NCBI RefSeq assembly: GCF_000243255.1
Contig: NZ_CM001436.1
Span: forward strand, 2,010,957-2,074,956
From: Methanoplanus limicola DSM 2279
GTDB taxonomy: Archaea > Halobacteriota > Methanomicrobia > Methanomicrobiales > Methanomicrobiaceae
Direction of reading: 5' to 3'
Length of the DNA: 64,000 nt
The stretch's first letter is position 1, and every line of letters begins with the position of its first letter. Under the pieces are notes generated by a model that ran no database searches, was not told the DNA's origin, and saw only the letters and a list, made by a program, of their open reading frames with translations. The position numbers and the translations under genes were made by a program. Positions 51,440 to 57,052 of the stretch are shown here, in pieces.

Positions 51440-53023
51440 TCATTCACGAAGAAATTCCGGCAGAAACTTCCGGAATGAACCGTAATTTACAATAAGAGGA
51501 AAGCCCGCCTCACCATAGCCTTTTTTTACCGCCTTTGCAAAGATTCTGAATTTCTCAGTCCTTACTATCTCCCATATTTTTCCGGCAAGGATGAAATTTC
51601 CGGATACTGACAGATTGTCAGCTGAGATATATATCTCACCGACTTCCCTTTCGGTCCTGACATCAATAACAATCATTCCGGCAGAGTCCGGAATGTTGGA
51701 ATGAATTTTGCCGGAATCTCCAAGGTTCATCATATCTTCGGATAAAAAGAGTCCAAAACCGTTTGTATTAAGACAACCGGTATCTGTGAGATGGTCTATA
51801 ATAAGATCAACGGTCTTTCTGCTGTCACAGAAATCGCGAAACAGGTCATAGAAATACTCCCTGTTAAGCCCCTTTGGGTTTGAGAACAGGACTGAGAATA
51901 TCTGCTGAACCATTACTGAGTCATCTCTTCTGTAATCCGGGAATCTTACAGACCCGTTTTCATAATCACAGACAACCTCCTCAAACTTTTGCCTGTTCAT
52001 CCGGTCAGCCAGCATAAACATCCGGATTTTTCCGGATCTTCTGCCAGAGCGGCCGATTCTCTGAACAAGCGTAAAGGAATCTTTGGGGGGATCTGCAAGG
52101 ATAACAGCGTCAATATCTCCGACATCAATGCCGGTCTCAAGTGTGCTTGTGGATATACATACAGCCTCTTTCAGATTACGCAGGCAGTTTTCGGTCTCAT
52201 TCCTGACGGATTTTTTAAGTGAGCCATGATGAACGAATACCTCTCTATTCAGGAATTTTCTGAACTCACCGGCAATATATTCGGTTTTTCTGCGGCTGTT
52301 GCAGAAGACTAAAACTTTTTTAAGCTTCTCATCTTTTATTCTGAGGCATAATTCCGGAACGGAAGAACAGTAGTCAGAGATTATCTCCCGATCTTTCCCG
52401 GTTGTAATCACCTCCGGATTTATCATATACCTCCCTGCAACTGCCAGCGGGCAATCAACAGTTGCCGAAACCGCATAGGTGCTGAAATCTCCGGAAAGCT
52501 CTTTTAATCTTGCAATAAGAATTCTTAACTGGTCACCCCTGTATGTACCGTCAATGACATGGACTTCGTCAATTATAAGAGCTTTTAGGGAAGCCAGAGC
52601 ATCCGGATGGCGGCAGATCATAGAATCGAGTGATTCAGGGGTTGTAATAATTATATCCGGAAGTTTGCCCCAGTTGATATAAGGGCTGTCTCCGGTCTTA
52701 ATCTGAATTGTAATCTCAAGCTGTGCCAGTGTGTCGCTGAGCCTCTCTTTCAGGTCGTTTGCCAGTGCCCTTGTCGGGGTAATATATAATACTGACAGAC
52801 CGGTCAGTCTTTTCCTTAGAATTCTCTCACAGAGAGGGGCAATTATAGCCTCGGTCTTTCCGGTTGCAGTTCCGGATATAATAATGGCATTTCTGCCTTT
52901 CAGAACAACCGGGACTGTAATCGACTGGATTTCAGTCATTCGGCCATAGCGAAGAAAAAAGGCATTCCAGGTCCTTTTAAGAAGCTTTTTTTCGTCCTGG
53001 AAATTTCTAAGTGAAGAAGTCAT
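51440..53023 (-). CDS. Lhr/BrxHI-like superfamily 2 helicase
   Basis: The 527-residue ATP-dependent helicase has the Q-like RMTEIQ, motif I GTATGKTEAI, DEVH box LIIDEVHVID, motif III SATVD, a second RecA domain with GIDVGDIDAVILADPP, and motif VI QRIGRSGRR. A small C-terminal domain follows. It is shorter than full Lhr proteins. Its start overlaps the upstream BrxD-like ATPase by 17 bases, so the two are coupled. BrxD plus an Lhr-like helicase (BrxHI) occurs in type 2 BREX, and an ATPase plus helicase also occurs in Shango, which suggests a defence role here. Confidence 0.8.
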   Translation of the reverse strand: MTSSLRNFQDEKKLLKRTWNAFFLRYGRMTEIQSITVPVVLKGRNAIIISGTATGKTEAIIAPLCERILRKRLTGLSVLYITPTRALANDLKERLSDTLAQLEITIQIKTGDSPYINWGKLPDIIITTPESLDSMICRHPDALASLKALIIDEVHVIDGTYRGDQLRILIARLKELSGDFSTYAVSATVDCPLAVAGRYMINPEVITTGKDREIISDYCSSVPELCLRIKDEKLKKVLVFCNSRRKTEYIAGEFRKFLNREVFVHHGSLKKSVRNETENCLRNLKEAVCISTSTLETGIDVGDIDAVILADPPKDSFTLVQRIGRSGRRSGKIRMFMLADRMNRQKFEEVVCDYENGSVRFPDYRRDDSVMVQQIFSVLFSNPKGLNREYFYDLFRDFCDSRKTVDLIIDHLTDTGCLNTNGFGLFLSEDMMNLGDSGKIHSNIPDSAGMIVIDVRTEREVGEIYISADNLSVSGNFILAGKIWEIVRTEKFRIFAKAVKKGYGEAGFPLIVNYGSFRKFLPEFLRE

Positions 53024-54731
53024 ACCGCTTCAGGAACTCCTCCGGATCTTTTTCCGGGTGAAACCTCAGAAGGTCAAGGGCTTCAACTGTGGATTTCACA
53101 AAAATTCTTGTCTTTTCGGTGGGCAGTTTCTGATTGGGATTATATTTTGTTTTGAAGCTATAAGCTTTCTCATAGGCATCAACAATTTTTTTGAGGAGTT
53201 TTGCCATCTCATATCTGTCAAGGTCGATGATTTCTATGACCCTGAGGTTTCTCACTTCCTTTGTCAGGGGGGACTCATCACTCAGCGAATCGATCATTCC
53301 GGGGACAAAAGAGAACAATAGTTTCACATGGGATTTATCCATCCAGATATAAGGATACTGCTGCCTGTTCTGTCCGCAATATCTAAGTCCGGTCTCTGTT
53401 CCGGTATAGCTGTGTATTTTTTCGGTTCTTAATACCGGCTCAGAATTTGACATTTTTATAAGTCCGCCGATCATATTCTCTGACTGCCGGTACTGGTATA
53501 CAGAATAATAGGCAGGATCAATTCCTTCAGCTTCGTCAAATAATATGAGCAGGCCATCAAGATTTAAGAGATTTTTGCAGATCCAGCCCAGGGTGCTGAT
53601 GAGATATGAATATATATTGGCTGAGACCTGCGTATCCATCATTTTAGGGAGAATATTAGCTGTTCCGGGCAGAGATTCCTGCTTACCTCTCATCCAGTCT
53701 CTTATGGATTCGTCATACCCATAGAGTTCACAGTACCGGAGAAATCCTCTGATAAATTCATTGTCATAAAGGATTCTGTAATCCGGATTTTTACCGTTGA
53801 TAAGGATATAGGCAAGAAGGTCATCAAAATATTTTGTTTCTCCATTGCAGTGATATGTAAATGACTCTGTAATTCCGGCATATATGTTTCTTGGACGGTT
53901 AAAAGCATTTTCACGCGGGTCTATCTCCACTTTGGCAACTGCCAGATTATTTAAGAGAGCTTTTTCTGCCGTGAAACTGATAAGATGGCTTTTTCCGGCT
54001 CCGTATTCACCTTCAATGGCAATACTTCCACTGCTGTCTTTCAGCCAGTCTGTAATCTGTTTAAGCTCTTTATCCCTTCCGCAGGTGAAGTCGAATATCT
54101 TCTCCTGAGGCACTCCGCCAAGCCTCAGGGCTTCAATGACTTCTCTGTAAAACTGCCTTTCGGAGAACTCCTGGCAGTCAGCCGGGGATGAATCCTCACG
54201 CGGATTTTTTCCGGAAACTATAACCGCAGAATTCAGAGTCTTTTCATTCTTATCTTCACCTCTGCCACCCTCTTTCTCTATCTCCTTCTCTTTCTCTATC
54301 TCCTTCTCTTTCTCTATCTCCTTCTCTTTCTCTGTCTCCTTCTCTTTCTCTGTCTCCTTCTCTTTCTCTGTCTCCTTCTCTTTCTCTATCTCCTTCTCTT
54401 TCTCTGTCTCCTTCTCTTTCTCTATCTCCTTCTCTATGTTTTTGTTATCCGGAAGAATGTCCCGGACTTTGGAAACGGGATTACCATCTCTGCTGTCACT
54501 TTCTCTGCTGTTACTCTCTCTGCTGTTACTTTCTCTGCTGTTACTTTCCCTGCTGTTACTTTCTCTGCTGTTACTTTCGTCCGGGAGAGTATTCAGGAAT
54601 TTGAGCTGTGAATCATAGATCCAGATTTCATTTTCATCCGTAAACCTTACAAGTTTCTGAACTCCACCGTACCTTTCACCGATAATTATGCCTTTTCCGT
54701 GCCTGAAGTGCTCAACCGGTTCTTCCGTGAT
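53007..54731 (-). CDS. BrxD-like ATPase 2 with an N-terminal Tudor/SH3-like segment and Glu/Lys-rich linker
   Basis: The core (from GTG 54113, 368 residues) is a P-loop ATPase with Walker A GEYGAGKSHL and Walker B LLILFDEAEG. The same frame stays open upstream to a stop at 54810. It encodes first VEHFRHGKGIIIGERYGG..VRF (a Tudor/SH3-like pattern), then SNSRE repeats, then EKEKEI repeats. Just before GTG 54113 it encodes FYREVIEALRLGG, a segment expected at the start of BrxD-type domains. No ATG, GTG or TTG occurs in this extension. ATC 54731, six bases after GGTGG, is only a candidate start. The protein would have about 574 residues. I infer it joins the neighbouring ATPase and helicase in one complex. 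Confidence 0.6.
   Translation of the reverse strand: MTEEPVEHFRHGKGIIIGERYGGVQKLVRFTDENEIWIYDSQLKFLNTLPDESNSRESNSRESNSRESNSRESNSRESDSRDGNPVSKVRDILPDNKNIEKEIEKEKETEKEKEIEKEKETEKEKETEKEKETEKEKEIEKEKEIEKEKEIEKEGGRGEDKNEKTLNSAVIVSGKNPREDSSPADCQEFSERQFYREVIEALRLGGVPQEKIFDFTCGRDKELKQITDWLKDSSGSIAIEGEYGAGKSHLISFTAEKALLNNLAVAKVEIDPRENAFNRPRNIYAGITESFTYHCNGETKYFDDLLAYILINGKNPDYRILYDNEFIRGFLRYCELYGYDESIRDWMRGKQESLPGTANILPKMMDTQVSANIYSYLISTLGWICKNLLNLDGLLILFDEAEGIDPAYYSVYQYRQSENMIGGLIKMSNSEPVLRTEKIHSYTGTETGLRYCGQNRQQYPYIWMDKSHVKLLFSFVPGMIDSLSDESPLTKEVRNLRVIEIIDLDRYEMAKLLKKIVDAYEKAYSFKTKYNPNQKLPTEKTRIFVKSTVEALDLLRFHPEKDPEEFLKRYDFFT
54270..54578 (-). repeat. Two in-frame microsatellites in the BrxD-like ATPase 2 linker
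   Basis: From about 54270 to 54435 an 18-bp unit recurs about nine times with small changes and encodes EKEKEI or EKEKET. From about 54488 to 54578 a 15-bp unit recurs about six times and encodes SNSRE. Both units are multiples of three, so slippage would lengthen or shorten the linker without shifting the frame. The second strand shows only Leu/Ser-rich shadows. Confidence 0.85.
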
Positions 54732-54745
54732 ATGACCACCCCGGG

Positions 54746-55981
54746 TTAATTGCTGCCCCGCACCTTCAGTGCGTTCAGTTCCTGTATTGCCCTCTGGACA
54801 AATTCTCTTTTATAACCGATCTCACCAAATCTCTGATCATATGCCGCTTTTGCAGTATCCGCCATTATCTGCTCTATGGTTTTCTTATCAAATGTTATAC
54901 CATAAGCTGTTTCATAGATTTTTGACAGTTTGAGTCCGATCTCTCTTAGAAGTTCTTCAGGTTCAAGCTCTGATCTCTCAAGGTCGATTTTAACTCCGGA
55001 AGGATTAATCTCACCGTCGAATACTGTCTGCAGCCTCTGGTTTAATGCCTCATATACGGCAGTTCTGCCTTCAAGGAAGTTTTCATCCGGAACTGCATAA
55101 AAGATCATTGAGCCGCCTATTGTGCCTTTGCTGCATGCATCAATAAGCTCTCTTAAATTATTCAGAAGGGTCTCTCTCTGCTTTGTGGTCATGCTGGGGG
55201 TCTGCTCTGCTTCATCCATCAACACGATTAAGCCTTTAAACTCAATCTCTTTTATCCACGATATAAGGGACCTTATCATTTTAAAGGCGTTTGAACGGTC
55301 AATTTTCTCAAATATCCGATATTCCTTCAGAACAGTTTTTGAGAGATTTTCACCTTTCAGGTACTGAATGATGAGGCTGAATTTATCATAGTCTTCATCC
55401 GTAAGGGCAAGGAAGGCATGTTTTATTGCATTCTGAAAACTTGTGCTTGGATAAGGGCCAATCTCTGAGATATAGCTGATGAGATAATCACGGGAGTTAT
55501 CTTCATCAGGTTCCTCCTCCTCAATTTCAGCCTTCTTACGGAGATACCAGTATCTGATTAAGGATTCAATTCCTCTCTCATATCCTGACAGTAATTTTTC
55601 ATACTTCTGAGGATAGATAAGATTTTCAGCTATTGCCCTGTAAACAGTCTCAAGTTTATGAAATGGGGTTGAGTCTGCACTCAGTTCAACATATGATGTG
55701 ACATAATTGTTAAGCCATCCCCTGCCCTGCACTGAGTACAGGAAATGGGTTTTCCCGCCGCCATATGTACCGATTACGAGCTTAAATGAACTTCCTCCAC
55801 AATTAATATAGTCACGGAGGTATTCTTCATCTATTGTATTTATGTACCTGTCAATTCCGGATGTAAAATACTGGTAGCCATAGAAAGGTGGCTGTCCCGT
55901 GCTTCCGACGTCATGAATGATCCTTTTTGCGAGGAGGACATCAGGTTCTTTTTTTTCTTCGTAATCGGGGATAATGGTCAT
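54746..55981 (-). CDS. BrxD-like ATPase 1 (DUF2791-type P-loop)
   Basis: The 411-residue protein has an N-terminal region typical of BREX ATP-binding proteins (LAKRIIHDVGSTGQPPFYGY), Walker A GTYGGGKTHFLYSV, Walker B LIVLMDEAEQTPS, and a sensor-like region before a helical C-terminus (IGYKREFVQRAIQELNAL). It belongs with AAA+ STAND-like ATPases of unknown mechanism used in phage defence. The next ATPase frame begins only 15 bases after its stop. Together with that ATPase and the helicase it forms a likely three-protein NTP-driven complex. No PglZ or methylase is present. Confidence 0.75.
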   Translation of the reverse strand: MTIIPDYEEKKEPDVLLAKRIIHDVGSTGQPPFYGYQYFTSGIDRYINTIDEEYLRDYINCGGSSFKLVIGTYGGGKTHFLYSVQGRGWLNNYVTSYVELSADSTPFHKLETVYRAIAENLIYPQKYEKLLSGYERGIESLIRYWYLRKKAEIEEEEPDEDNSRDYLISYISEIGPYPSTSFQNAIKHAFLALTDEDYDKFSLIIQYLKGENLSKTVLKEYRIFEKIDRSNAFKMIRSLISWIKEIEFKGLIVLMDEAEQTPSMTTKQRETLLNNLRELIDACSKGTIGGSMIFYAVPDENFLEGRTAVYEALNQRLQTVFDGEINPSGVKIDLERSELEPEELLREIGLKLSKIYETAYGITFDKKTIEQIMADTAKAAYDQRFGEIGYKREFVQRAIQELNALKVRGSN

Positions 55982-56104
55982 AGTAATCAGTTAAACTAAT
56001 TTATTTGTGCATTATTAATAATTATATCAATCACCAGATGGATTTTTAATTATCATATCAGTCATCAGATGGGTTGATTATTATAATAACAATACCGAAT
56101 GAAT

Positions 56105-57052
56105 TTACAAGACTGATTTTTCAAATTTAATTCCGGAGAATGTTTCGCCTATGGCTCTTGTCTTTGACGGGATCCAGATAACTCCTTTCTGGCTTCTGGT
56201 ATTGCTTCTCTTTGCGGCTGTAAGTTTTAATTCGGAATTTCCGGTTGTTCTGGCGTTTAACCTTGAAAGGTCATAGCTGAGCTGTACCCTGGTATAATCT
56301 TTAAAGCGGAGTTTTGAGGGACTGGTTCTGAATCTTAAATCCTGTTTTATAAATGCGATCTCAGGGAGAAGGTCAACAATTTTTACTTCGGAGTTCTTCT
56401 CTGCATTGTTTTTAAACAGCCATATATCATACGCTGCTTTAAGTTCGGAGAGGAAAGATTCATCATCGAATTCACGTTCAAATATTGTATTTTGAGCGTT
56501 GATAATCAGTTTTGCAATCGGTTCAGGATCTGTTTTGCATTCGCCGATTTTTTCTATCTCATTGCCATAAAAGAGTTTTGTTTTTCCGGATGAGAGATCT
56601 GCTATAATATATAACAGCCCGTTAAAGAGTTTATATTTTGGATACTGTCCTTCATGGGCGATATTTAGTTCAGAAAGTTTATCGTGGAGTTCTTTTCCGA
56701 AAGTTGCCCTGCAGCTGTTTTCTGTCCGGAGAATTTCCCCATCAAATTCAGACAGTATATTATTTATTTCGCCGGAAAAATCCTCATTTAAGTTTGCCTT
56801 CTCTGATTTTCTCCTGATGTTTGCAACTTCGGTTTTCATCAGGATTAGTTTTTTTACCGGGTTTTCTTCCGGTTTATTCAGTTTTTTTAAAGAATTAACA
56901 ATATCAGTTCGTGCCCTGTTTTCTGCGGATAAATTTTTGATTAATTCTTCCATATGCTTCATTGAAATAGGTGTGATTATCCGGCATATATGTTTTGGAA
57001 TTGAACGAAAAAATGACTCACTCTCTATTGCTATATTTGTTATGCCGGTCAT
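56105..57052 (-). CDS. Unknown protein, probably part of the ATPase/helicase operon
   Basis: The 315-residue protein has a helical N-terminal third (about 35-110, EELIKNLSAENRARTDIVNS) and a central mixed domain (about 130-250, with YKLFNGLLYIIADLSSGKTK, a GKT without a P-loop context). The C-terminus is basic (AAKRSNTRSQKGVIWIP) and might bind nucleic acid. It is 123 bases upstream of BrxD-like ATPase 1 on the same strand. I do not recognise a family; it could be the recognition or effector part of the system. Confidence 0.6.
   Translation of the reverse strand: MTGITNIAIESESFFRSIPKHICRIITPISMKHMEELIKNLSAENRARTDIVNSLKKLNKPEENPVKKLILMKTEVANIRRKSEKANLNEDFSGEINNILSEFDGEILRTENSCRATFGKELHDKLSELNIAHEGQYPKYKLFNGLLYIIADLSSGKTKLFYGNEIEKIGECKTDPEPIAKLIINAQNTIFEREFDDESFLSELKAAYDIWLFKNNAEKNSEVKIVDLLPEIAFIKQDLRFRTSPSKLRFKDYTRVQLSYDLSRLNARTTGNSELKLTAAKRSNTRSQKGVIWIPSKTRAIGETFSGIKFEKSVL

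Follow-up and report, generated by a model that had tools for sequence, protein, structure and literature searches.

Where does a protein begin when its conserved reading frame offers no ordinary start codon? This question is raised by a minus-strand frame at 53007-54809 in the 64,000-nucleotide stretch of Methanoplanus limicola DSM 2279 DNA analysed here (the window, whose numbering is used throughout), which belongs to a genome consisting of a single 3.2 Mb contig. The frame comprises 600 open codons, and its first ATG, GTG or TTG is the GTG at 54113; the roughly 690 nt of open frame that the initial annotation had described ahead of this GTG are present, with no ATG, GTG or TTG among them. 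Most likely the protein starts at an ACG codon instead, which would account for the absence of an ordinary start codon from the gene.

The frame encodes the second of two ATPases, here called the Tudor-ATPase, in a cassette (51440-57052) of four co-directional minus-strand genes:

56105-57052, minus strand: first cassette gene; orthologues of 281-288 aa
54746-55981, minus strand: upstream gene, first BrxC/BrxD-like AAA ATPase, with an ATG start and TAA at 54748-54746 (PF10923, E 1.2e-43)
53007-54728, minus strand: proposed full coding sequence of the Tudor-ATPase, 573 residues plus stop
51440-53023, minus strand: downstream SF2 helicase, BrxHI/SngC-like (PADLOC BrxHI, E 4.5e-74)

The helicase gene overlaps the Tudor-ATPase gene by 17 nt. 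The order of all four genes is kept in the sister species, the second genome of the genus compared here, and in two more distant genomes, and the ATPase-ATPase-helicase part is kept in several further archaea.

The N-terminal extension as coding sequence

The proposed protein and the only canonical in-frame codon that could shorten it are laid out as follows:

54594-54728, minus strand: N-terminal Tudor domain, a predicted five-strand barrel (AlphaFold2 pLDDT 86; Foldseek)
54487-54578, minus strand: linker 1, (ESNSR)n, a 15-nt tandem repeat of 6.1 copies
54270-54435, minus strand: charged linker 2, (EKEKE[TI])n, an 18-nt tandem repeat of 9.2 copies
53010-54185, minus strand: BrxC/BrxD-like AAA ATPase domain with GEYGAGKSH and LLILFDEAE (PF10923, E 2.3e-12)
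54111-54113, minus strand: GTG, first canonical in-frame codon, within the conserved LRLGGVPQEK of the ATPase domain

Ranking of start-less coding extensions among 510 coding-like ORFs in 800 kb sampled from the genome placed this extension first, with a score of 53.5 against 14.4 for the runner-up, and the Tudor-ATPase was also the strongest start-less gene in 546 ortholog pairs with the sister species. The sister orthologue (74% identity) is likewise without a canonical start until codon 98 of its open frame. Between the two species, dN/dS was 0.20 for the Tudor segment (based on the N-terminal 43 codons of this one species pair, at a dS of 0.7) and 0.26 for the linker; the ATPase part (0.09) and the upstream gene (0.08) gave lower values. 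If substitutions fell at random, 16 amino-acid changes would be expected in the Tudor segment; 10 were seen (p 0.0012), the pattern of a region that evolves as coding sequence with no canonical in-frame start upstream.

Structure prediction for the 50 N-terminal residues gave a five-strand barrel from residue 3 onward (AlphaFold2, pLDDT 86), resembling solved Tudor domains; the best Foldseek matches were the Tudor domains of PHF19, PHF1 and UvrD (TM 0.64-0.73), at E-values of 0.02 or weaker. In this model the Tudor domain is complete when the protein starts at the ACG. The PcrA/UvrD-type Tudor family PF21196 did not match this protein, and a homologue (L019) reached 15.6 bits against a cut-off of 23.9. 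In the whole-protein model, which is loosely similar to ORC/Cdc6-type and RdrA AAA+ ATPases, the ATPase domain was confident and the linkers were disordered or helical.

Fold, dN/dS and homologues agree with the initial annotation that the N-terminus is genuine and Tudor-like, and the condition that it had named for refutation, homologues beginning at the GTG position, did not hold in the comparison: homologues with a Tudor domain have their starts ahead of it. By these comparisons of sequences the missing N-terminus is coding, under purifying selection and present in homologues. The two repeat linkers that had been reported are also confirmed, with the coordinates and copy numbers given above.

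Two further observations concern these segments. The in-frame 15-nt and 18-nt repeats (54270-54578) lengthen the linker in this species, and the sister linker is shorter and without them. A similar Tudor N-terminus (VVKHHYYGVGRIIGERYKG) is carried by another protein family, seen in two further genomes of the order (L027 and L030).

Candidate start codons at the gene junction

Three elements are packed between the upstream stop codon and the first Tudor strand:

54734-54742, minus strand: Shine-Dalgarno sequence GGGGTGGTC (in the sister species, GGTGGTGATC), pairing with the 16S 3' end
54729-54731, minus strand: ATC, start proposed by the initial annotation; CTC in the sister species
54726-54728, minus strand: ACG, the start codon proposed here; kept in the sister species and aligned without gaps to the ATG or GTG start of seven homologues

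The junction reads TAA CCCGG GGTGGTCATATC ACG GAA GAA in the window and TAA TCC GGTGGTGATCTC ACG GAA GAA in the sister species, so that ACG GAA GAA is identical in both and the preceding codon is ATC in one and CTC in the other. In the sister species an in-frame TAA lies five codons 5' of the ACG, and the codons between them are TCC GGT GGT GAT CTC; since only the ACG is a single mismatch from AUG, it is left as the sole near-cognate there. From this TAA to the conserved VEHFRYGKG motif, ACG is likewise the sole AUG near-cognate, apart from an AGG inside the motif itself.

The ungapped alignment places an ATG start in five homologues and a GTG start in two at the ACG column, which is thus a conserved codon one mismatch from AUG at the initiator column; most of these seven homologues have at least two possible starts, one of which was chosen for the alignment, so the true start of each is uncertain because another canonical codon lies close by in most. 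Among 37 Tudor-ATPase sequences from archaea and bacteria, all but the 2 from this genus have a canonical start in the 40 codons preceding the Tudor domain, and an ACG in this gene was found in two genomes only, the host and its sister.

The 16S 3' end, GGATCACCTCCT, forms a duplex with the Shine-Dalgarno sequence of -12.4 kcal/mol in the window and -11.0 kcal/mol in the sister species. Of 294 clean ATG genes in the genome, 46 have strong Shine-Dalgarno sites, and their offsets cluster at 12-16. The offset of the ACG is 13 in the sister species and 16 here, so that it has a ribosome binding site at a suitable distance in both; the offset of CTC is 10 in the sister species and that of ATC is 13 here. 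Taken together, sequence comparison makes it probable that the Tudor-ATPase is translated by non-AUG initiation at ACG 54728.

Alternative explanations for the missing start

Among the alternatives, initiation at ATC 54731 (CTC in the sister species), which would yield MTEEPVEH, retains the most weight but is unlikely. The ATC is the near-cognate at the best Shine-Dalgarno offset in the window (13, with the same -12.4 kcal/mol duplex, against 16 for the ACG), ATC and ATT occur at the presumed start column of a ParA-like gene described below, and the near-cognates in other genes are mostly AUU and AUA, which counts against ACG. The MTE product also resembles the MTETVDH of homologues, which a one-residue insertion could accommodate. 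However, the sister position is CTC, two mismatches from AUG and at an offset of 10, and a start at ATC requires a one-residue gap against every homologue of the same length. We therefore prefer ACG 54728, because the sister species keeps ACG and has CTC at the ATC position. The initial annotation had suggested a non-standard start at this ATC behind GGTGG; the codon (54731-54729) does follow these letters (GGGGTGG), and the suggestion of a non-standard start is most likely right, but the choice of ATC is probably one codon off, the conserved candidate being the ACG.

Fusion of the Tudor-ATPase to the upstream ATPase, by frameshifting or stop readthrough at the junction, has very little probability. 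It draws on the overlap of the downstream frame with the final 61 nt of the upstream gene in the window, and on the arrangement in the sister species, in which both ORFs share one frame with a single TAA between them. These two arrangements differ by a 2-nt indel that alters the distance from the stop and hence the frame relative to the upstream gene, so that each species would need a different mechanism. In addition, inspection of the junction by eye revealed no slippery heptamer, the two genes are separated by a strong Shine-Dalgarno sequence, and the homologues start separately.

An equally small chance attaches to a start at the internal GTG 54113, with the upstream frame as an untranslated relic. 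This GTG is the first canonical in-frame start, and the codon is also found in the sister species, but a relic would not be expected to retain the constraint seen in the Tudor segment over so substantial a divergence, and a start there would cut off the REVIEALRLGG helix that is conserved in homologues. The GTG is probably not the start codon of the Tudor-ATPase.

Initiation at an out-of-frame GTG (54739-54737) within GGTGGT, with a subsequent -1 shift to reach the Tudor frame, is more improbable still: the GTG is in the same place in both species, but it is itself part of the Shine-Dalgarno sequence, a slippery site was not seen, and its frame ends after about 18 codons in the window, whereas in the sister species it continues over several tens of codons. 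Least probable of all is an ATG hidden by a sequencing or assembly error; a base error or frameshift had been entertained in the initial annotation, but is very unlikely because the independently sequenced sister genome carries this ACG too and likewise lacks a canonical start there.

A possible mechanism of initiation at ACG

For initiation at the ACG, we propose that the strong Shine-Dalgarno sequence just past the stop codon of the upstream ATPase would position the ribosome at ACG 54728-54726, where the initiator tRNA would pair with ACG and give a product beginning M-EEPVEHFRHGKG. The mismatch at the second position may be tolerated because Shine-Dalgarno pairing holds the ribosome in place. 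An ancestral ATG would have become ACG by one transition before the split of the two species and been retained since, and the weak start may make the second ATPase less abundant than the first; both the decoding of ACG as Met and the lower level of the second ATPase are what we infer from this arrangement.

The upstream stop lies at a distance of 17 nt (15 nt in the sister species), and termination there may contribute through coupling. In Haloferax, reinitiation is down about 60% at a distance of 13 nt and abolished at 22 nt (PMC10666635); because of this steep fall over 13-22 nt, within which both gaps lie, direct Shine-Dalgarno initiation is preferred, and termination-reinitiation as the sole route is less likely. 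A downstream RNA hairpin as a helper was also considered, but folding there was unremarkable in the two species (z -0.43 and 0.19).

Other start-less genes in the genus and order

Comparison of 554 ortholog pairs of the two species showed ATG/ATG, TTG/TTG or GTG/GTG at the first shared start column of almost every pair. Among the 546 pairs of a stricter, non-overlapping set, a few genes had a conserved coding N-terminus with no canonical start in one or both species, namely the Tudor-ATPase, a PAS-domain protein, a response regulator, a ParA-like ATPase and RNase Z.

The ParA-like ATPase gene (L258:9048-9893, plus strand, G000:C1 1909048; loci L285-L322) occurs across Methanomicrobiales. Its presumed start column contained ATT in 19, ATA in 5, ATG in 4, ATC in 3 and ACG in 1 of 32 distinct sequences. 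In 13 of these, the interval between 25 codons before the column and 8 codons after it contained no canonical start; two of the 13 carried a stop codon immediately 5' of the column (ATT). In this column Ile is replaced by Met and Thr only, and in the neighbouring hydrophobic columns by Val, which fits a start. A conserved Ile residue could explain part of the pattern in the family that has a GTG three codons upstream; the argument for a start comes from the genomes without a canonical start and from the two with a stop directly before the column.

RNase Z (L259:2411-3370, minus strand, G000:C1 1923370) has no canonical start for 34 codons in either species of the genus, and its start is likely ATA (or ATT) after AGGAGG. 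The ATA column is ATG in two other genera, and most other genera have a GTG or ATG three codons upstream or a TTG downstream, none of which is present in this genus; the case for an AUA start is firm within this genus and weak outside it. The response regulator (L045:16723-17619, plus strand, G000:C1 556723) has ACG here and ATG in the sister species, with no further canonical start for 85 codons. The PAS-domain protein (L258:1643-3727, minus strand, G000:C1 1903727) has a conserved N-terminus with no canonical start there in either species, and ATA CCG / ATA CCA behind a G-rich stretch is its candidate start.

As a tentative extension, which we hold to be possible rather than probable, AUU, AUA, AUC and ACG starts may serve Methanomicrobiales as a conserved device under selection in certain genes, among them those for the ParA-like ATPase, RNase Z and the Tudor-ATPase, probably for translation that is low or regulated by initiation-factor fidelity.

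Comparison with known systems

The cassette resembles BREX (BrxD) and Shango (SngB), each with its BrxH/SngC helicase, in that a PF10923 AAA ATPase lies beside a related SF2 helicase. Shango consists of TerB, an ATPase and a helicase (PMC10250203). The cassette differs in having two unequal ATPases, the second with an N-terminal Tudor domain, and in that the five genes scanned here include no TerB, PglZ or methylase. The curated cut-off of 350 bits for BREX BrxD (NF033438) was not reached by the Tudor-ATPase (49.7) or the upstream ATPase (136.4), and TerB was not found in the adjacent upstream gene with Pfam or PADLOC; for these reasons the cassette was assigned to neither system. The product of 56105-57052 had no Pfam, PADLOC or NCBIfam match. 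By analogy, the cassette likely functions in DNA handling or defence, and it is a candidate system for such a role that matches no full BREX or Shango system.

Gene finders usually permit ATG, GTG and TTG as archaeal starts, and to our knowledge ACG almost never serves as a start codon in microbes. In the literature searched by term, with partial coverage, no archaeal or bacterial gene with an ACG start was described, and a review of archaeal initiation, searched in the same way, yielded only ATG, GTG and TTG as named start codons (PMC7531240). If initiation at a conserved ACG is true, and the presumed start column of other genes in the order moves among AUG near-cognates, some archaeal genes would be truncated or missed in annotation, and such genes would provide natural substrates for testing the start-codon fidelity of archaeal initiation factors.

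Genomic ACG at an initiator position has precedents elsewhere. We know of no plastid-like C-to-U mRNA editing in archaea. In chloroplasts, the ACG start codons of rpl2, psbL and ndhD are edited to AUG (PMC9845219). The genomic ACG at the initiator is shared with the gene described here, but the plastid route needs C-to-U editing of the mRNA. Initiation at ACG in eukaryotes and viruses, including mammalian mRNAs and the Sendai virus P/C mRNA, appears among the titles that the same source cites (PMC9845219). There, as proposed here, ACG itself is decoded as a start; the ribosome arrives by scanning, whereas the case here would involve Shine-Dalgarno placement within an operon. Near-cognate initiation in bacteria is known from E. 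coli infC, which has an AUU start. For measurements of such initiation, PMC11497404 and PMC9845219 refer to Hecht et al. (2017). The Tudor-ATPase gene is like infC in being a conserved gene whose proposed start codon is one mismatch from AUG and is helped by a Shine-Dalgarno sequence, but it is archaeal, has its mismatch at the second (ACG) rather than the third position, and has no known feedback regulation.
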